From assembly GCF_000016785.1 (NCBI RefSeq), contig NC_009486.1, forward strand, positions 558,001-622,000: a stretch of DNA of 64,000 nucleotides, in the 5' to 3' direction. Of this stretch, positions 11,357 through 25,767 are shown piece by piece. A program made the translations under genes and the position numbers. Source of the DNA: Thermotoga petrophila RKU-1 (GTDB lineage: Bacteria; Thermotogota; Thermotogae; Thermotogales; Thermotogaceae). The stretch's first letter is position 1. Each line of letters begins with the position of its first letter. The notes beneath the pieces are model-generated. The model made no database searches and was not told the DNA's origin. It saw nothing but the letters and a program-made list of their open reading frames with translations.

Positions 11357-11959
11357 ATGATTTCCATATTCTTCGGGAGTTTCCTTGTGGGGCTTTCCGG
11401 TGCGGTCGCACCGGGCCCTCTAATGATGATAGCCATATCCCAGAGTGCAAAAGGTTGGAAAAACTCTATAAAACTGATATCCGGCCACGTTGTTCTGGAA
11501 GCTTTTCTTGTTCTCCTGCTGGTTCTTGGCTTTCAATGGGTCCTGAAATCTCCGCTTGTGACAAAAGTGATAGGTCTTCTTGGAGGATCTTTCCTTGCTT
11601 TCATGGGGATTTCTCAGCTAACAGCCATCAAAGGTGAGATCTCACAGGTAGAAAAAAACGATCTGAAAATCCCCCTTCCCATCACAGGAGCTCTCGTTTC
11701 ACTGTCCAACCCGTACTTTCTTCTTTGGTGGATGTCCGTCGGCAGCGCTTTCCTTGTCAAAGCGCAGACATCGTTTCTGGCTGGGGTTACTGCCTTCTAC
11801 TTCGGCCACATTCTCTCAGACATTCTCTGGTACTCTCTGATAGGTGTCTTTGGAAACACCATATTGAAATCCTCACGGATCTATAAAATAGTGATGGCCG
11901 TGACCGGTCTGTTCCTCATCGGTTTTGGTCTTTTCTTCGTGCTTGATTCTTTCAGGTGA
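11357..11959 (+). CDS. LysE/RhtB-family amino-acid exporter
   Basis: A 200-residue inner-membrane protein with about six hydrophobic helices. It carries the family's N-terminal GxSxxxxPGP motif (GLSGAVAPGPLMMIAISQSAKG) and the central SNPYFLLWW helix. These transporters expel lysine, arginine, threonine or related metabolites. Two adjacent ATGs (11354, 11357) follow GGGGAGG; the second has better spacing (6 nt). Its 3' end overlaps that of convergent aroQ by 8 nt. Convergence with the aromatic operon gives no functional hint, and the substrate cannot be told. Confidence 0.82.
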   Translation: MISIFFGSFLVGLSGAVAPGPLMMIAISQSAKGWKNSIKLISGHVVLEAFLVLLLVLGFQWVLKSPLVTKVIGLLGGSFLAFMGISQLTAIKGEISQVEKNDLKIPLPITGALVSLSNPYFLLWWMSVGSAFLVKAQTSFLAGVTAFYFGHILSDILWYSLIGVFGNTILKSSRIYKIVMAVTGLFLIGFGLFFVLDSFR

Positions 11960-12386
11960 GTTCTTCCAGTTTCTTTTTTATGTACTCCAGAGCCAGAAGG
12001 TAACCGTACACACCAAGTCCGCTTATCTGACCGTCGCACACCTCAGCCGTAACGCTCCTTCTTCTGAACTCTTCCCTCCTGTGTATGTTCGATATGTGAA
12101 CCTCCACCTTCGGCACCTTCACGATCTCCAGGGCATCCCTTATGGCGTAGCTGTAGTGGGTGAAAGCCCCCGGGTTTATCACAAGACCATCGAAATCGAG
12201 CCTGTGCAGTCTATCCAAAATTTCTCCCTCGTGGTTCGACTGAAAGACCTCCACTTCCACATCGTTTTTCCTTCCCCAATCTTCTATCATCTTCACAAGA
12301 TCCTCATGAGAAAAGTTTCCATAGATGTTTTTGTCTCTTTTTCCGAGCATGTTCAAGTTGGGTCCGTTCACCACGAGTACTTTCAA
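11952..12386 (-). CDS. aroQ: 3-dehydroquinate dehydratase, type II
   Basis: The 144-residue type II dehydroquinase converts 3-dehydroquinate to 3-dehydroshikimate (shikimate step 3). Visible signatures are NGPNLNMLGKRDKNIYG at the N-terminus with the catalytic Tyr in NIYG, NPGAFTHYSYAIRDAL and the catalytic His in EVHISNIHRRE. Type II enzymes are cytosolic dodecamers of about this length. It is the last gene of the aromatic operon, and its ATG overlaps the aroKB stop by 4 nt. Confidence 0.95.
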   Translation of the reverse strand: MKVLVVNGPNLNMLGKRDKNIYGNFSHEDLVKMIEDWGRKNDVEVEVFQSNHEGEILDRLHRLDFDGLVINPGAFTHYSYAIRDALEIVKVPKVEVHISNIHRREEFRRRSVTAEVCDGQISGLGVYGYLLALEYIKKKLEELT

Positions 12387-13861
12387 TCTACCACCTCCAA
12401 AAGTTCGAGCGGATCGACCTCTAAGAATTCGATCTTTCCGATTTCTTTCACGTAAGGAAGCCTAACTCTGGAACCTTTCAGGATCTTCTTGTCGTTCAGA
12501 ATGAGATTTCTGGCTTTCTCAACATCGACGGATGGAACAGGAATTGGTACGATCTGTTTGACCTTTTCTACGATCCATCTCATGGTTTCCTTAGGCACTA
12601 TTCCCTTTCTGTACAGGTACATCGTCTCTTTTTCGATGCCCCACGCTACCGCTATACCGTGAGGTACCCCTTCCAGCATCTCGTACACATGACCGAGCGT
12701 GTGTCCCAGATTCAGGGCGTGTCTCAAACCCATGTCGTAGGGATCTTCCATTACTATCCTCGCTTTATCTTCGACGGAGATTTTTACCATCTCGCTGAGA
12801 ACTCTGAGATTTCTCTTCTCAATCTTCTCCGGCTCATCGAAGAGTTCTACCCCGCGACCCGATAGAATCGTCATCTTGAAGGCTTCCACGACTCCCTCTT
12901 CGAACCTGCCCTCATCCATCGAAAGCGTGACGGTGGGATCTATGATGACGTAGTCTGGCATTCTGAAAGTCCCAACGACGTTTTTCACTCCAGCGAAATC
13001 GATGGCATTCTTTCCACCAACGGAAGCGTCCACCTGAGCCAGAAGTGTTGTCGGATAGAAAGAAAGTCCCACTCCCCTTTTGAACGTGCTCGCCACAAAG
13101 CCAGTGAAGTCGGTGAGAGCACCTCCTCCGACACCCGCTATGGTCTTTCCCCTGGGAAAGTCCATCCTCACAAGTTCGTAGTACGCTCTGGAGACATGCT
13201 CCAGCGTCTTCACTTCCTCTCCATCCGGAAAAAGAAGCCGATTCTCTGGAAGGTACCTTCCGTATATCTTCTCCACCCTCTCCGTGGTGAAAACCAGCTC
13301 TTCGTTCCTCACCCTCTTGAAACCACCGAGGATGATCTTCACCAGGTGTGGTTTTTCTATCGTTGAGATTTCTTTCTCGTCCAGAGCCTCCAGCACAACG
13401 AGTGCGGTTGTTTCCCACTCGTTCAACTTGGAGGTGTCGATCCCTCTAAACTCCGTGTAGAACTGTTTTCTCCTTTCCCAGATCTCTCGTATTCTCTCTT
13501 TTCCTTCTCTCAGAAGAGGCCTGTTCTCTGTTGTTACTCTTTCCATCAACACTTCAGGGGGAGCGTAGAGAAAGAGAGTCTTCTCTTTCTTCAAAAGCTC
13601 CCTGTTCTCTGGATCGATCACAACACCTCCACCCGTTGCCACGACCACGTTGTCTCTTTCCACAAGTTCCCTAAGAAGTTCTTTCTCTTTCAATCGGAAG
13701 TACTCTTCACCGTCTTCTTCGAAAATCCTTCGAACTCTTCTTCCCTCTCTTCTTTCTATCTCTTCGTCCATATCTATGAACTGAAGGTCGAGCACCTCGG
13801 AAACCCTTTTACCGATCGTACTCTTTCCAGAACCCATCATCCCAACGAGGAAGATTCTCAT
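12383..13861 (-). CDS. aroKB: fused shikimate kinase - 3-dehydroquinate synthase
   Basis: A 492-residue bifunctional protein. Residues 1-160 are a shikimate kinase: Walker A GMMGSGKST at 7-15, shikimate-binding DMDEEIERREGR, GGGVV and the R-rich lid ENRPLL. The rest is an NAD- and metal-dependent dehydroquinate synthase with the GVGGGALTDFTGFVASTFKRG core, QVDASVGGKNAID, and metal-ligand histidines in HALNLGHTLGH. It thus carries steps 2 and 5 of the pathway, order kinase then synthase. The start has GGAGG 7 nt upstream. It lies inside the 3' end of aroC, an overlap of 53 nt. This fusion is known from Thermotoga; it is rare elsewhere. Confidence 0.95.
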   Translation of the reverse strand: MRIFLVGMMGSGKSTIGKRVSEVLDLQFIDMDEEIERREGRRVRRIFEEDGEEYFRLKEKELLRELVERDNVVVATGGGVVIDPENRELLKKEKTLFLYAPPEVLMERVTTENRPLLREGKERIREIWERRKQFYTEFRGIDTSKLNEWETTALVVLEALDEKEISTIEKPHLVKIILGGFKRVRNEELVFTTERVEKIYGRYLPENRLLFPDGEEVKTLEHVSRAYYELVRMDFPRGKTIAGVGGGALTDFTGFVASTFKRGVGLSFYPTTLLAQVDASVGGKNAIDFAGVKNVVGTFRMPDYVIIDPTVTLSMDEGRFEEGVVEAFKMTILSGRGVELFDEPEKIEKRNLRVLSEMVKISVEDKARIVMEDPYDMGLRHALNLGHTLGHVYEMLEGVPHGIAVAWGIEKETMYLYRKGIVPKETMRWIVEKVKQIVPIPVPSVDVEKARNLILNDKKILKGSRVRLPYVKEIGKIEFLEVDPLELLEVVD

Positions 13862-14939
13862 TCCCGAACCTCCTTTTCAGGTCGTCGATGTTTCCATCGC
13901 CCAGGTGTTCGAGCAAGGCGTCCGAAATCACCACAGCGAGCGCGGCTTCACACACGACGGAAGCGGGAGGAACGGCCGTCACGTCAGATCTCACGTACGG
14001 TGTTTTCGCCGGTTCCATTGTTCTCAAATCAACGGAGTTCAACGGCTTTCCTGTGGTAGGAATGGGTTTCACGAAGACGTTCACCCACACGTCTTCTCCG
14101 TTGGTGATGCCCCCTTCTATTCCTCCCAGATTGTTTGTTCTTCTCTTTATCCTGCCGTCTTCCAGTTCGAACTCATCCAGATAGTCAAAGCCGTACCACA
14201 TCTCTTCACTTCCAATCACCACTCCCTTCACAGCGGGAATGGCAAAAAAGAGGGAACCTATCTTCGAGTCGAGCTTTTTGAAAAGATCGGAGTAGCTCCC
14301 GATGCCTGCCGGGACACCTCTTGCAATGACCTTCACCTTGCCGCCGAGGGTGTTTCCCTCTTCTTTCGCCCTGTCGATCTCGGAGATCATTCCTTCCGTT
14401 GCCTCTGGATCTGGACAGAAAACGGCCGATTCGTCCCTCTTTCTTCTCAACTCCTCAAAATTGTCTGGGATATTCTTCGCTTCCACGTTTCCAAGTCTTG
14501 TGACAAACCCGAGAACATCTATGTTGAACTCTCTGAGGAGACTCTTCAGAAGAGCACCCGCCGCCGTGAGAGCCACCGTCCATCTGGCACTGGATCGTTC
14601 CACGTAGACGTTCAGATCCGGCAGTTTGTACTTCACAAAGGCAGCGTAATCTATGTGACCCGGTCTCGGCACGCTTCGAACGTCTTTCACCGGGTTGCCC
14701 GCTTTGTTTGGAACGAGAATCGTCACCGGTGCTCCCGTTGTGATACCTCCCCACACTCCGGAGACGATCTCGAAGGCATCTTCTTCCATGCTCATCCTCT
14801 TTCCTCTACCGTAGCAATTTCTTCTCCTGAAAAGCTCTCTTCTTATGATTTCTTCGTCGATCTTCAAACCCGCAGGAATCCCTTCCAAAACCGCTATCAT
14901 GTACTTTCCGTGGGAATCTCCCGCTATTGTGAGCCTCAT
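13809..14939 (-). CDS. aroC: chorismate synthase
   Basis: The 376-residue enzyme makes chorismate from EPSP using reduced FMN, the last common step to Phe, Tyr and Trp. Family signatures are present: GDSHGKYM at the N-terminus, RSVPRPGHIDYA, RSSARWTVALTAAGALLK and the later GGIEGGITNGEDVWV (usually GGISGG) with FVKPIPTT. Its first codon overlaps aroE by 4 nt and its last 53 nt are shared in another frame with aroKB. The overlap means the C-terminal 17 residues are constrained by two genes. Confidence 0.95.
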   Translation of the reverse strand: MRLTIAGDSHGKYMIAVLEGIPAGLKIDEEIIRRELFRRRNCYGRGKRMSMEEDAFEIVSGVWGGITTGAPVTILVPNKAGNPVKDVRSVPRPGHIDYAAFVKYKLPDLNVYVERSSARWTVALTAAGALLKSLLREFNIDVLGFVTRLGNVEAKNIPDNFEELRRKRDESAVFCPDPEATEGMISEIDRAKEEGNTLGGKVKVIARGVPAGIGSYSDLFKKLDSKIGSLFFAIPAVKGVVIGSEEMWYGFDYLDEFELEDGRIKRRTNNLGGIEGGITNGEDVWVNVFVKPIPTTGKPLNSVDLRTMEPAKTPYVRSDVTAVPPASVVCEAALAVVISDALLEHLGDGNIDDLKRRFGNENLPRWDDGFWKEYDR

Positions 14940-15697
14940 CTCAGTACCTCCTCGAACACTTCTTTGAACGATCTTTCATCGTAGATTCCCCATATTTTGA
15001 GATTCTCCATCGCCTGATAGTAAAACATGAGGTTTCCCTTTACAACGTGTTCCACTCCCAATCTCTTCGCATCAGAAACGAGAGGAGTCTCAAAGTACAC
15101 CACGTCGTAAACAAGATACAGACCTTTCAAAGAAGCTTCGGAAACGGTCAGTTTCTCTCCCTTCATTCCAACGGAAGTGGTGTTGAAGAGACTCTTCGCC
15201 TTTTTCACAACCTCGTCGAGCTGATCGAGAGAGAAAATTTTCACAGGAAAATCGAGAGCCTTCGCCCTTTCGATCGTTCTGTTCACCACCCAGATGTCTT
15301 TCACGCCCATCTGGAGGAGAGCGTAGATCACAGCACGTGCGGCTCCGCCCGCTCCCACAACGACAACGGGTTCTTTCACCTCTACACCCTCGAGCGATTT
15401 CACAACGCCAACCCAGTCGGTGTTGTATCCCTTTCCCCGAAAGACGCAGTTCACGGCTTTTATTCTCTGCGCATCTTCAGATGGTTCGACGTACCGCATC
15501 ACTCTTTCTTTGTGAGGAATTGTCGCGTTGAAACCATCGTATTCTTCGAGAATCCTTCTTATCTCCGTGTCGAAAGATTCAGGTGGTATCTCTTCCATAC
15601 CGTACGAGTGGTTCATTCCCGCCCTTTTGAAATACTCGTTGTAAAGCCTTGGTGATATGCTGTGACTCACCGGATACCCTATGATGCAGAATTTCAT
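14936..15697 (-). CDS. aroE: shikimate dehydrogenase
   Basis: The 253-residue NADPH-dependent enzyme reduces 3-dehydroshikimate to shikimate. The shikimate site is visible as [17 protein letters not shown] (residues 6-22), the catalytic Lys lies in [13 protein letters not shown], and the cofactor loop is [15 protein letters not shown], followed by NRTIERA. The open frame extends 19 codons upstream, but ATG at 15697 overlaps the aroA stop as ATGA and gives the standard N-terminus. Cytosolic; part of the aro operon. Confidence 0.95.
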
Positions 15698-16959
15698 GAT
15701 ATCACCACTCTCTCCAGCAGTTCGTAAAAGTTCGGGAAAGACACCGCCACGCATTCGTGATCTTTCACATCAACCCCCTCTTCACTCACGAGCCCTGCTA
15801 TGGAAAAGAGCATAGCCATTCTGTGGTCGCCTTCTGGATCCACCGATCCACCTTTTATGCTCTGCTTTCCAACGATCTTGAAACCATCTTTGAACTCTTC
15901 TATTTCGACACCGAGCCGTTTGAAGTTTTCCACCAGAACCCTTATCCTGTCGGATTCCTTCTTTCTCAACTCCTCCGCGTTTCTCACAACCGTTTCTCCT
16001 TCCGCAAAAACACCGAGAAGTGCCACAAGAGGCAGTTCATCTATCATGAGAGGTACGAGGTGTTCGGGAACAACCACACCTTTCAGGTTTGGAGATGTCT
16101 CAACCCTCACAGTTCCTATCGGTTCAAGATTTTCTTCCGTGATCTCCCACTCCAGGTTGGCTCCCATGAGTTTCATAACTTCGAGGAGTCCCGTTCGGGT
16201 GGGATTCAGGCCAACGTCCGTTACTGTGATTCGAGCGTTGGGATGAATGGCGCCGAGAACCACGAAGAAAGCAGCCGACGAGATATCACCAGGGACTTTC
16301 ATCGTGAAACCCCTGAAGGTAGCAGGCTCCAGAACCACACGTGTTCCCTCCACCTCGACGGGAACACCGAGGTTTTTGAGCATCCTTTCCGTGTGATCTC
16401 TGCTTTTTGCTGGTTCGATAACGATTGTTCGTCCGCTGGCTCTGAGCCCCGCCAGAAGAACCGCGCTCTTCACTTGAGCGCTCGCCACCGGTGTTTTATA
16501 GCTGATACCGGAAAGGTGATTTCCCTTGATAGCCATGGGAAGGTAGTTGTTCTGCCTCGCCATGAAACGCGCTCCCATCATCTCCAGAGGTTCGATCACT
16601 CTTCTCATCGGCCTTCTGGAAAGAGAAGAATCCCCGTAAAGCACTGTGAACATCTCGTATGAAGCAAGAACTCCACTCATCAACCTCGTGGTTGTTCCGG
16701 AGTTTCCACAGAAGAGAGGTTCTATTGGCTCAGCGAAGGGCTTCGGAAAGACCTTCATCTTTTCCCAATCGCCTTCAAAACGTGTACCGAGTTTTTCGAG
16801 AATATCGTGGGTTCTCTCTGTGTCGAGACACCTCAAGAGGTTGTACAGGGTGCTTTCCGTTTCCGCCAAAGCGGACAGAATGAGAGCCCTGTGAGTTATG
16901 GATTTGTCCGGAGGAACGCTCAGCACTCCTTCAACCTTCTTCGCCGGAAGTACCTTCAA
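15694..16959 (-). CDS. aroA: 3-phosphoshikimate 1-carboxyvinyltransferase (EPSP synthase)
   Basis: The 421-residue enzyme transfers enolpyruvyl from PEP to shikimate-3-phosphate. Recognisable elements are [17 protein letters not shown] near the start, [16 protein letters not shown] (the PEP-site loop), [14 protein letters not shown], the central [10 protein letters not shown], and KESDRIRVL plus DHRMAML near the end. The PEP loop reads GNSGTTTR instead of the GNAGTAMR of enteric enzymes, as in glyphosate-tolerant class II proteins; tolerance here is inference. It overlaps tyrA and aroE by 4 nt each. Confidence 0.95.
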
Positions 16960-17717
16960 GATATCACTTCCCTTATCACTTTTTTCAGGTTTTCGAAATC
17001 CTCTTTCTCTGTGAGATGATATAAAACATTCAGAAAGTTTCTTGCGTTCTCCAGGTATTTGAGGATGTTTTCTTTATTATATCTGATCATATCCAGCGCC
17101 ATCTCCATGTTCTGTTTCGAAAGTCTCGTGTTGGAAAGATAACCAGGTCCCGCGTATTCTTCAAAGGGTTTCCCTACGTACCGTGCGCTCAGTGAGATCA
17201 AGTACTGAACGTGGCTCACCGCAGCGACGATCTCGTCGTGGATCCTGTAGTCTATCCACAAAGGTCTGGCACCAAGATCTTTCACGATGTTTTCAATCAT
17301 CCCATCCTCTTTTCCGTCGAGAGAGCAGAGAAAGAAGATCTTTCCGTCGAACATTTCTCGATCCCAACCTGATTTTCCCTTTCGTTCGTTTCCGGCCATG
17401 GGATGTCCTCCTGTGAAGTTCAATCCCCTCTCTCTGGCTATTTCCATGAAAGGTGTCTTCACGCTCGCCACATCGAGAATCTTCCCTGAAAAGTCCGTTT
17501 CTTTCAGGAATCTCTCCTCGACGCTCATGGGAAGCGCAAGAACGAGAAGGTCTGTATCGTAGAGATCGCTTTCCTTTGAAACAGTTTCTATTCCGTTTTC
17601 TTCCAATGCTTTCATCGTTTCTTCATCTCTGTCGAAGGCTGTGACATGATGCTTTTCTTTCAATTTAAGTGCGATCGATCCACCGATGCATCCCGCTCCG
17701 AGCACAGAAATTTTCAA
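16956..17717 (-). CDS. tyrA: prephenate dehydrogenase
   Basis: A 253-residue TyrA. It has an N-terminal Rossmann domain ([18 protein letters not shown], then AFDRDEE with an acidic residue that favours NAD) and the catalytic-site sequence [13 protein letters not shown] with the conserved His. The helical dimerisation domain includes [17 protein letters not shown]. It oxidises prephenate (or arogenate) to the tyrosine precursor. There is no chorismate mutase or ACT domain fused; feedback control may lie in DAHP synthase and the upstream attenuator. It sits second in the aromatic operon, overlapping aroF and aroA by 4 nt. Confidence 0.93.
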
Positions 17718-18730
17718 TTCACCTTCACCCCCAGGGCATCAGCGAGTTTCTTCATTTCCTGAACCAGTTCCTTGAAGAGCTCGAAGTCAAGACTCTGTTT
17801 TCCATCCGAAAGTGCCTTCTCCGGCTCCGGATGAACCTCCACAATGATTCCATGAGCTCCAACCGCTATAGCGGCCCGGGAGAGTGGAATAACGAGGTCT
17901 CTTCTTCCCCCAGAGTGGCTCGGATCCACCAGAATGGGAAGATGGGATTCCTTTCTGATTATAGGAACAGCGGATATATCGAGTGTGTTCCTCGTGGCCT
18001 TTTCGAACGTTCTGATTCCCCTTTCACACAGTATGATCTTCGTGTTTCCAGAGTTTGCGATGTATTCAGCGGAGAGAAGGAACTCTTCGATGGTGTTCAT
18101 GAAACCCCTTTTCAGAAGAACGGGTTTGTTGTAGCTTCCCGCTTTAGAGAGCAATCTGAAGTTCTGAGCGTTTCTCGCTCCTATCTGAATGATATCAGCG
18201 TACTCGGCCACTTTTGGAAGATCGTCTTCTCCGAGAGCCTCCGTCACCACGTACATACCGTACTTGTCGGCAGCTTCTCTCAGGTACTCCAACCCTTTCT
18301 CTCCGAGTCCTTGGAAAGAGTAAGGAGATGTTCGAGGCTTGTAAGCCCCTCCCCTCAAAACCTTGACACCGAGTTCGCTCAAAAAGTGCGCGGTTTCCAT
18401 GAGCATTTCCCTGCCCTCAACTGAGCACGGTCCCGCTATGATGGTGAAGTAGCCGTTTCCTATCTTCACATCTCCGAGGTCGATCACCGTGTCCTCCGGA
18501 TGGAACTCACGAGAGACGAGTTTGTAAGGCTTGAGCACCCTCACAACGCTTTCCACACAGTCCAAAGATTCGAACTTGTCCGCCACCACGTACCTATCGT
18601 CCCCGATGATCCCAATAACCGTTCTTTCCTGACCTTTGGAAATGTGACACTTCAAGTTGTAACTCTCAGCCAACTTCACCACCTTCCTTATATCTTCTTC
18701 TGTGGAACCGGGTTTCAAAACGACTATCAT
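17714..18730 (-). CDS. aroF: 3-deoxy-7-phosphoheptulonate (DAHP) synthase, type I-beta
   Basis: The 338-residue entry enzyme of the shikimate pathway condenses PEP and erythrose-4-phosphate. Residues 1-65 form the ferredoxin-like regulatory domain known to bind Tyr/Phe in the T. maritima enzyme. The barrel follows with AGPCSVEGREM, GGAYKPRTSPYSFQGLG, IGARNAQNF, LLKRGF and the metal-site DPSHSGGRR. The frame is open to 18856, but ATG at 18730 follows AGGAGGTGGTAGATCT and gives the known length. It is first in a seven-gene operon and is preceded by a transcription attenuator with an aromatic-rich leader peptide (18763-18936). Confidence 0.96.
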   Translation of the reverse strand: MIVVLKPGSTEEDIRKVVKLAESYNLKCHISKGQERTVIGIIGDDRYVVADKFESLDCVESVVRVLKPYKLVSREFHPEDTVIDLGDVKIGNGYFTIIAGPCSVEGREMLMETAHFLSELGVKVLRGGAYKPRTSPYSFQGLGEKGLEYLREAADKYGMYVVTEALGEDDLPKVAEYADIIQIGARNAQNFRLLSKAGSYNKPVLLKRGFMNTIEEFLLSAEYIANSGNTKIILCERGIRTFEKATRNTLDISAVPIIRKESHLPILVDPSHSGGRRDLVIPLSRAAIAVGAHGIIVEVHPEPEKALSDGKQSLDFELFKELVQEMKKLADALGVKVN

Positions 18731-18762
18731 AGATCTACCACCTCCTACGGGATTTTGGTAAT

Positions 18763-18870
18763 AAAAAAAGGGCTCCGCTGCCCGGAGCCCTTCAGTGTTT
18801 TCTATCGCTCCGGGCAGATACCGAAAGAGGCACCTGCCCGGAGCGGTCGCACTCACGGACAGGTGCCCCT
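18763..18870 (-). promoter_or_regulatory. transcription attenuator of the aromatic operon
   Basis: On the minus strand, segment 1 (18860-18867, GGCACCTG) pairs with segment 2 (CAGGTGCC, 18829-18836). Segment 2 also contains GCTCCGGGCAG (18834-18844), which pairs over 11 bp with segment 3 (CTGCCCGGAGC, 18807-18817). Segment 3 pairs equally with the copy of GCTCCGGGCAG in segment 4 (18778-18788). Segment 4 can instead fold on itself (GGGCTCCG, loop GGCAG, CGGAGCCC) and run into seven T (18763-18769), an intrinsic terminator. A ribosome stalled on the aromatic codons leaves segment 1 free, so 1:2 and 3:4 form and transcription continues. A ribosome reaching the stop codon masks segment 1, so 2:3 and the terminator form. 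Confidence 0.85.
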
Positions 18871-18936
18871 GTTAAACCAAAAGTAATAATAATTGTGTTC
18901 AATCGATTTGAGACATATTATTCTTCCACATCGCAT
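18853..18936 (-). CDS. aromatic-amino-acid leader peptide of the aro operon
   Basis: A 27-codon ORF whose ATG (18936) lies 6 nt behind GGGGTGA. Codons 15-21 read Asn-Tyr-Tyr-Tyr-Phe-Trp-Phe, so six aromatic residues in a row, covering all three end products of the pathway. Its last codons (Gly-Thr-Cys-Pro, stop) lie over segment 1 of the attenuator, the arrangement needed for ribosome position to choose between RNA folds. The peptide itself is presumably discarded; its translation speed is the signal. It is too short for ordinary gene finding. Confidence 0.85.
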   Translation of the reverse strand: MRCGRIICLKSIEHNYYYFWFNRGTCP

Positions 18937-18961
18937 AACCTTTCACCCCTGTTTGGTTACT

Positions 18962-18990
18962 ATTCTAACAAACAACGCTGGAAAAATCAA
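18962..18990 (-). promoter_or_regulatory. promoter of the aromatic operon
   Basis: Minus-strand TTGATT (18985-18990), a 17-bp spacer and TAGAAT (18962-18967). The start of transcription is predicted about 20 nt before the leader-peptide ATG. The -35 overlaps the end of the upstream MFS gene. Confidence 0.7.
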
Positions 18991-24636: not shown

Positions 24637-25767
24637 GTGAGGATCTACGATCCGTTTAGAAAGAAATGGATAGAAGAAGAAATAGAAACACCCTTTCCCT
24701 CGAAAGGATTGGTTGCCACGTTTCCCTTTGTCGATCTTCACGTTCATGTTCGCCTCAATGGTGGAGAAGATTACAGCTCCTTAGAAGAAGCCTCCCTTGT
24801 GGGAGGCTTTTTTAAAGTGGTGGTACAGCCCAATACAAAGCCACTCATAGACAGCAAAGAAGTTCTGGAAAGACACCTGGATCTCCCCAAAAACAGAGCG
24901 GTCGAGTTTCTCTTTGCCGTTTCTCCCTTCGGATCGATCGAAGCTGAAGGAGAAAGAGTGGTGGGCTTTTCAACGGACGGCATAGAGTACGACTACCCTA
25001 CACTCGTTGAAACGATGAAAAAGAAAAAGAAAGCCCTCTGGTTCGACCACAGCCAGATGTACGAGGTGGATGGAATCTTCTACGAGGGAGCTCCTCTACC
25101 GTTTCAGAAAAGACCGAGATCGAACGAAGCGATAGCCATAGCACGAACCGTTCTGACGGGCCTTGAGTACGGATTCGAAAGATTCCACATCCAGCATGTA
25201 ACAACGAAGTACTCCGTAGAAGTGATATCGTTTTTGAAGAACCTGGCAAAGGTCAGCTGTGAAGTAACACCGCACCACCTGTTTTTCTGCTACGAAGACA
25301 TCAAAAACACGAACTTCAAGATCAACCCTCCTCTCGGATCTCCGGAGGATAGAAGAGCTCTCATTGAGGCCGTGAAAAAAGATGTGATCGATGTTCTAGC
25401 GACGGATCACGCGCCACACCACGAAAAACCGGACGATTTTCTCACCGCTCCCTACGGCTCAACATCCATAGAAATCGCCTTTCCTGCCTATTACACAGCC
25501 CTGGGTGATCTCGAACTCGTCGTAAAAAAACTCACGAAAAAGCCCCTCGAAGTACTCGGTGTTGAAGCTCGTCTCACAGAAGATACTCTTGTGTTCATCG
25601 ATCCGGAGGCAGAGTTCATCGTGGACGCAAAAAAATTCAAAAGCAAAGGGAAGAATTCCATGTTCGACGGTGTCAGACTGAAGGGAAAAGTGGTCGCTCT
25701 TAAACTCAAAGGAAGATGGGTGATGATAGATGGAGAGGTTATTGCTGACCAAAAAGAAAACGATTAG
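24637..25767 (+). CDS. pyrC: dihydroorotase
   Basis: The 376-residue zinc amidohydrolase cyclises carbamoyl aspartate to dihydroorotate. Metal-binding DLHVHVR lies near residue 33, later histidines are in FHIQHVT and VTPHHLFF, and the catalytic aspartate is in LATDHAPH. The frame is open from 24595, but GTG at 24637 follows GGAGGG at 6 nt and removes a non-conserved stretch. It overlaps pyrK by 38 nt. A strong intrinsic-terminator sequence lies within its 5' third (24788-24813). Confidence 0.92.
   Translation: MRIYDPFRKKWIEEEIETPFPSKGLVATFPFVDLHVHVRLNGGEDYSSLEEASLVGGFFKVVVQPNTKPLIDSKEVLERHLDLPKNRAVEFLFAVSPFGSIEAEGERVVGFSTDGIEYDYPTLVETMKKKKKALWFDHSQMYEVDGIFYEGAPLPFQKRPRSNEAIAIARTVLTGLEYGFERFHIQHVTTKYSVEVISFLKNLAKVSCEVTPHHLFFCYEDIKNTNFKINPPLGSPEDRRALIEAVKKDVIDVLATDHAPHHEKPDDFLTAPYGSTSIEIAFPAYYTALGDLELVVKKLTKKPLEVLGVEARLTEDTLVFIDPEAEFIVDAKKFKSKGKNSMFDGVRLKGKVVALKLKGRWVMIDGEVIADQKEND
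24788..24813 (+). terminator. intrinsic terminator-like hairpin inside pyrC
   Basis: AAGCCTCCC TTGT GGGAGGCTT makes a 9-bp stem and the run TTTTTT (24808-24813) completes a textbook terminator on the sense strand, encoding EASLVGGFF. It begins 151 nt after the pyrC start. While ribosomes follow the polymerase it should be suppressed; if translation of pyrC fails, transcription of the downstream pyr genes should stop. Confidence 0.6.

Follow-up and report, generated by a model that had tools for sequence, protein, structure and literature searches.

The window analysed here is a 64,000-nucleotide stretch of the Thermotoga petrophila RKU-1 genome (1,823,511 bases). It carries, on its minus strand, a seven-gene operon for the shikimate and tyrosine pathway in the order aroF-tyrA-aroA-aroE-aroC-aroKB-aroQ. 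Between the promoter and the first gene lie a leader ORF with its own ribosome-binding site, an intrinsic terminator and a mutually exclusive antiterminator. The features are collected in Table 1.

Table 1. Genes and leader elements of the aro operon; positions are those of the window.
Feature	Position	Strand	Remarks
Promoter: TTGATT (18990-18985), 17-nt spacer, extended -10 TGT-TAGAAT (TAGAAT 18967-18962)	18962..18990	-	
Shine-Dalgarno AGGGGTG of the leader ORF, 7 nt 5' of ATG	18944..18950	-	
Leader peptide ORF, 27 codons, MRCGRIICLKSIEHNYYYFWFNRGTCP, then stop	18853..18936	-	homologous leaders in relatives
Regulatory codons TAT TAT TAC TTT TGG TTT (Tyr-Tyr-Tyr-Phe-Trp-Phe)	18874..18891	-	aromatic class kept in all leader-bearing relatives
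Segment 1, final codons of the leader ORF; partner is segment 2	18856..18870	-	double changes in 6/12 pairs
Segment 2	18826..18845	-	18826-18840 (3' part) pairs with segment 1; 18829-18845 pairs with segment 3
Segment 3	18806..18822	-	partner is segment 2 (17 bp) or segment 4 (11 bp, 18817-18807)
Segment 4	18778..18790	-	antiterminator partner of segment 3; also terminator 5' arm and loop
Intrinsic terminator GGGCTCC-GGGCAGC-GGAGCCC + seven U	18763..18793	-	compensatory changes in the stem across families
aroF Shine-Dalgarno AGGAGGTGG	18738..18746	-	
aroF, DAHP synthase with N-terminal regulatory domain, first gene	17714..18730	-	PRK08673, TIGR01361; matched by solved structures PDB 1rzm and 3pg9
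tyrA, prephenate dehydrogenase	16956..17717	-	
aroA, EPSP synthase	15694..16959	-	
aroE, shikimate dehydrogenase; real start probably further downstream	14936..15754	-	
aroC, chorismate synthase	13809..14939	-	
aroKB fusion, shikimate kinase / 3-dehydroquinate synthase	12383..13861	-	NF010556, 1018.8 bits
aroQ, type II 3-dehydroquinate dehydratase, last gene	11952..12386	-	

Parts of the leader

A sequence-only reading of this DNA had proposed a promoter (TTGATT-17-TAGAAT), a ribosome-binding site and a 27-codon ORF with six aromatic codons, and all of them were found on the minus strand. The 8-bp terminator stem with seven U was likewise recovered; the hairpin occupies 18790-18770, seven T follow at 18769-18763, and the stem reaches 11 bp when the A/U flank is counted. 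The 11-mer that segments 2 and 4 were said to share, with its complement in segment 3, could be placed by coordinates: GCTCCGGGCAG occurs at 18844-18834 and again at 18788-18778, and CTGCCCGGAGC lies at 18817-18807. The three exclusive pairings are also there, but their lengths are not 10, 11 and 11 bp. Checking every pair by script gave 15 bp for helix 1:2 (18870-18856 paired with 18826-18840), 17 bp for 2:3, 11 bp for 3:4 and 8 bp for the terminator. The interval 18860-18867 given for segment 1 covers just the core of its helix arm, and the distance from the -35 element to the aroF ATG (18730) is 260 nt and not 256 nt. The parts of the leader, their registers and their conservation can be read directly from the DNA of this and related genomes.

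The leader peptide ends in HNYYYFWFNRGTCP before the stop codon. Six consecutive aromatic codons are by themselves no proof of an attenuator. The genome contains the exact TAYTAYTAYTTYTGG run a single time, and the region holds three terminator-like sites where 0.5 are expected and two promoter-like sites where 0.2 are expected. A chance origin of the leader is very unlikely because it is conserved in relatives. One further run of six aromatic codons, and no others, was found in the window, at 24687 on the minus strand; it lies antisense to a dihydroorotase-like gene and is probably due to chance.

Conservation and two RNA architectures in Thermotogota

DAHP synthase was sought in 103 Thermotogota genomes and found in 58, and the DNA upstream was then inspected; four of the 58 were left out of the count owing to contig ends upstream. 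A leader with a cluster of aromatic codons, which specify products of the operon, and a terminator precede the DAHP synthase operon in 45 of the 54 evaluable genomes, in nine of ten families. Every evaluable genome has it in families f1 (8/8), f2 (1/1), f3 (4/4), f5 (1/1), f7 (1/1), f8 (9/9), f9 (7/7) and f11 (3/3), as do 11 of 19 in f10. No leader was found upstream of DAHP synthase in the other nine of the 54, eight from f10 and one from f6. In f5 and one f11 genome (L011, L014), a chorismate-mutase-like gene comes first in the operon and the leader precedes that gene; that the leader has remained with the operon speaks for attenuation. By this census, the leader is phylum-wide and is not peculiar to the T. 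petrophila genome.

Across 37 leaders the aromatic runs comprise 129 Tyr, 31 Phe and 25 Trp codons. The run is conserved with synonymous and Tyr/Phe/Trp exchanges, and the N-terminal residues drift. Among Thermotoga leaders the N-terminal half is variable (MRCGRIICLKSIEHN, MQSKRMICIEFVECD, MLVDKTMWIEPVKHN, MRRLEWKFEVNKG) and YYY[FY]WFN[RK]GTCP before the stop is constant, with one case using other Tyr codons. The promoter elements TTGAnn/TRGAAT are conserved in all Thermotoga relatives, and an AGRGGTG Shine-Dalgarno is present in six of six f1 leaders. The proposed mechanism came through the refutation test that the sequence-only reading had placed in related genomes: these retain the aromatic run as well as the terminator, and their stems carry compensatory changes.

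The leaders fall into two architectures. Type I, found in f1, f5, f7, f9 and f11, has the five-segment wiring, and helix 1:2 stands at a fixed register, starting 15-18 nt before the end of the ORF (16 sequences, five families). Each helix was compared one arm at a time, since MAFFT alignment by columns had put the terminator arms of the five-segment leaders out of place. In eight distinct 1:2 helices, 96.9% of the cells are paired and six of 12 pairs show changes on both sides. These double changes carry more weight than the paired-cell figure, which is biased towards structure because the arms were picked by best pairing. The covariation score was reached in none of 500 shuffles, and when the helix was slid out of register just 30-42% of the cells were paired. 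Type II, a simpler switch with one helix, lacks segments 2 and 3; it occurs in f2, f3, f8 and f10 and with a second class of DAHP synthase. Here, the stretch of the ORF directly 3' of the aromatic run pairs with the 5' arm of the terminator, as GACACCCATTTTGG does with CCAAAATGGGTGTC in f10 and ATGCCCTCTTCC with GGAAGAGGGCAT in f2.

The second DAHP synthase class is shorter (f3, f10; L064, L065, L067, L069) and has its own aromatic leader. These leaders differ in sequence (NYWWFYYYAGVHLRPPAVLS and others) and have a 12-bp antiterminator.

For a folding proxy common to both types, the transcript was cut at the terminator loop, and we calculated how far upstream RNA occupied the 5' arm of the terminator. 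Occupancy was high while the ribosome stood on the aromatic run and lower once it had passed, giving a positive difference in 36 of 37 Thermotogota leaders; L042 failed this test. The difference was equalled in at most five of 100 shuffles for 23 of the 37, which are related leaders and not independent tests. Full-transcript equilibrium folding was discarded as a universal test, being too insensitive for all but f1 and some f10 leaders. For several relatives (f9, f11 and the paralogues) it favoured the terminator at any position of the ribosome, so that these leaders need a kinetic argument. Helix 3:4 of f9 has just 8 bp.

Compared with positions 17714-18990 of the window, one genome (G092, leader L005) shows 100% identity in DAHP synthase and a nearly identical leader, but its hisZ is only 74% identical. 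The aro operon seems to have been exchanged recently between Thermotoga species. No relative of the DAHP synthase was found among viral contigs and none of the leader among plasmids. In a Gemmatimonadota metagenome-assembled genome (L036), the leader MSIAPRLYAYFAYLYATRTTGRERRGMRY with a terminator lies approximately 170-20 nt 5' of the DAHP synthase gene; by the folding proxy this leader scored no higher than shuffles.

Modelled switching and alternative explanations

We modelled the ribosome as a 30-nt block with its leading edge 12 nt past the A-site (the footprint is assumed) and calculated the terminator probability with the A-site at successive codons. At 80 °C, for which the extrapolated energy parameters are uncertain and co-transcriptional kinetics are assumed, it was 0.04 at Tyr1 and Tyr2, 0.03 at Tyr3 and Phe4, 0.34 at Trp5, 0.91 at Phe6 and 0.97 at the stop codon. 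Folding at 60 °C gave the same switch point, with 0.01-0.08 from Tyr1 to Phe4, 0.64 at Trp5, 0.96 at Phe6 and 0.99 at the stop. The switch is thus set in silico by whether the ribosome is at the regulatory codons or at the stop, and the switch point at the end of the aromatic run agrees with the geometry proposed earlier. The ribosome-free leader gave a terminator probability of 0.60 at 37 °C and 0.07 at 80 °C; at 37 °C, the outcome for the Thermotoga leader varies with the length of upstream RNA allowed to fold.

On sequence and folding model together, the aro operon is very probably under the control of a ribosome-mediated transcription attenuator with wiring like that of the his operon. A ribosome would translate the 27-codon peptide while RNA polymerase synthesizes the leader. 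When charged tRNA-Tyr is scarce, or charged tRNA-Phe in the case of the fourth aromatic codon, the ribosome would stall in the Tyr-Tyr-Tyr-Phe run. Segment 1 would then be free to pair with segment 2, and segment 3, being released, would pair with segment 4, so that the terminator is blocked and the operon transcribed. A ribosome that reaches the stop codon would cover segment 1, and segments 2 and 3 would pair, leaving segment 4 to fold into the terminator. The model predicts that the sensor reads mainly Tyr and then Phe (Phe4), that Trp5 is a weak sensor and Phe6 none, and that the untranslated Thermotoga leader is read through (ON). The earlier proposal that Phe, Tyr and Trp are sensed at once does not fit these results: a stall at Trp5 is partly permissive, one at Phe6 terminates, and Tyr dominates the runs of the phylum. 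The DAHP synthase of T. maritima is Tyr-regulated. A Tyr-led sensor fits with this and with the presence of tyrA in the operon.

The alternative helices are strong by themselves, translation of the leader ORF is predicted only, and the modelled untranslated leader changes state with temperature. All this would suit a switch independent of translation (a riboswitch, an RNA-binding protein or a temperature-dependent fold) with an incidental ORF. We consider such a switch very improbable: no Rfam riboswitch or leader family matches at threshold, segment 1 lies within the ORF at a constant distance from the stop, and the frame and the aromatic codons are conserved over nine families despite the changing RNA architecture. 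A constant sensor with exchanged RNA wiring is hard to explain without sensing by the ribosome.

A real attenuator might also act on aroF translation or on ribosome reinitiation instead of termination, given that translational attenuators are known and that the leader ORF lies 5' of a gene with its own strong Shine-Dalgarno. We give this hardly any weight, as that Shine-Dalgarno is outside all of the alternative helices, 122 nt lie between the leader stop codon and the aroF start codon, and the leader has an intrinsic terminator with seven U, as nearly all related leaders have a terminator. The prospect that the terminator merely ends a short independent transcript, with no regulation of aroF, is close to nil. 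The competing 3:4 helix, the same-strand site directly 5' of aroF, the lack of any promoter-like site between terminator and aroF in a scan of the region, and the co-conservation of the leader with DAHP synthase operons all speak against a small RNA, even though a terminator near the start of an operon can mark the end of a small RNA and the putative ncRNAs listed for the T. maritima transcriptome include four with small ORFs (PMC3636130).

Known attenuators and the his leader

In the his attenuator, a stall leads to two chained helices and read-through, and finishing the peptide leads to a shifted pair and the terminator. The E. coli and Salmonella his attenuator (RF00514) likewise has consecutive regulatory codons read by the ribosome (leader: PMC3896937). 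The Thermotoga leader differs from it in sensing aromatic residues, in its sequence and in having no obvious segment for shut-off when untranslated. The predicted read-through of the untranslated leader also sets it apart from the E. coli trp leader, although the E. coli pheA (RF01859, Phe_leader) and trp leaders share the same classical attenuation logic. In Corynebacterium glutamicum, AroR of the aroF operon is likewise an aromatic-codon leader before a DAHP synthase gene, with read-through when charged tRNA is short; as summarized in PMC11802643, which cites Neshat et al. 2014, its Phe-Tyr-Phe run responds to Phe and not to Tyr. The known likeness is functional; the Thermotoga leader has a Tyr-Tyr-Tyr-Phe-Trp-Phe run and five-segment wiring and belongs to another phylum. 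The uORFC-13-1 motif of Acholeplasma (PMC8632094) similarly combines a promoter, a Shine-Dalgarno, a small ORF with one or more Phe codons and a terminator before the DAHP synthase gene aroF. The main text of that study restricts the motif to Acholeplasma and environmental sequences and does not mention the present leader, and Thermotogae genomes were among those screened.

A search for Rfam leader families (gathering threshold, E≤1) returned nothing convincing. Phe_leader (RF01859) gave a weak whole-length match to the Thermotoga leader (18.6 bits, E 0.85; gathering cut-off 55 bits), exceeded its cut-off in none of the 103 Thermotogota genomes and produced scattered sub-threshold matches only. 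The T-box (RF00230) had no match in the window at the gathering threshold. By its modelled mechanism, the leader is a ribosome-mediated attenuator of the classical type that stands outside every Rfam leader family. Classical attenuators have been described for Proteobacteria, Actinobacteria and some Firmicutes (PMC3766115, PMC1262725, PMC9413887). We found no Thermotogae attenuator of this kind described in open-access full texts; a 2010 subscription survey may list Thermotogae. The taxonomic spread is surprising because a 2013 survey proposed that attenuators originated in gamma-proteobacteria. That survey relied on Rfam models only, and Rfam models miss the Thermotogota leaders.

The same genome has a second candidate, which lends support to the reading of the aro leader. 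A his leader, MKIQNEIMKMFFDEHHHHCYGPAVSPPGV, with four His codons (HHHH) before its stop, is followed by a terminator and lies 5' of hisZ-hisG (L079:530-665, G000:C1). Of 16 Thermotogota genomes whose hisZ matches, 14 have a His-rich leader in this position (L088, L091-L103). T. petrophila shows no obvious leader at its trpE, ilvB and prephenate dehydratase loci. We put forward tentatively, at somewhat less than even chances, that ribosome-mediated attenuation, at DAHP synthase and his operons alike, goes back to the ancestor of the Thermotogota or arose there very early, and does not share its origin with the leaders of Proteobacteria. On this view, the single-helix switch and the five-segment double inversion would be convertible into each other within the phylum and kept in step by the aromatic run, with the Thermotoga form ON when untranslated.

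That a thermophile-rich phylum should regulate aromatic and histidine synthesis in the same way, by RNAs of different architecture, would point to independent or much older origins. It would also imply coupling of transcription and translation at about 80 °C and an RNA switch whose energetics are tuned to that temperature. The Thermotogota leaders offer a comparative set for how attenuators are rebuilt while the sensor codons persist. At one his locus (L089, genome G091), the apparent end of a TnpB-like transposon gene lies between a remnant of the leader terminator and hisZ; this genome may have lost his attenuation.
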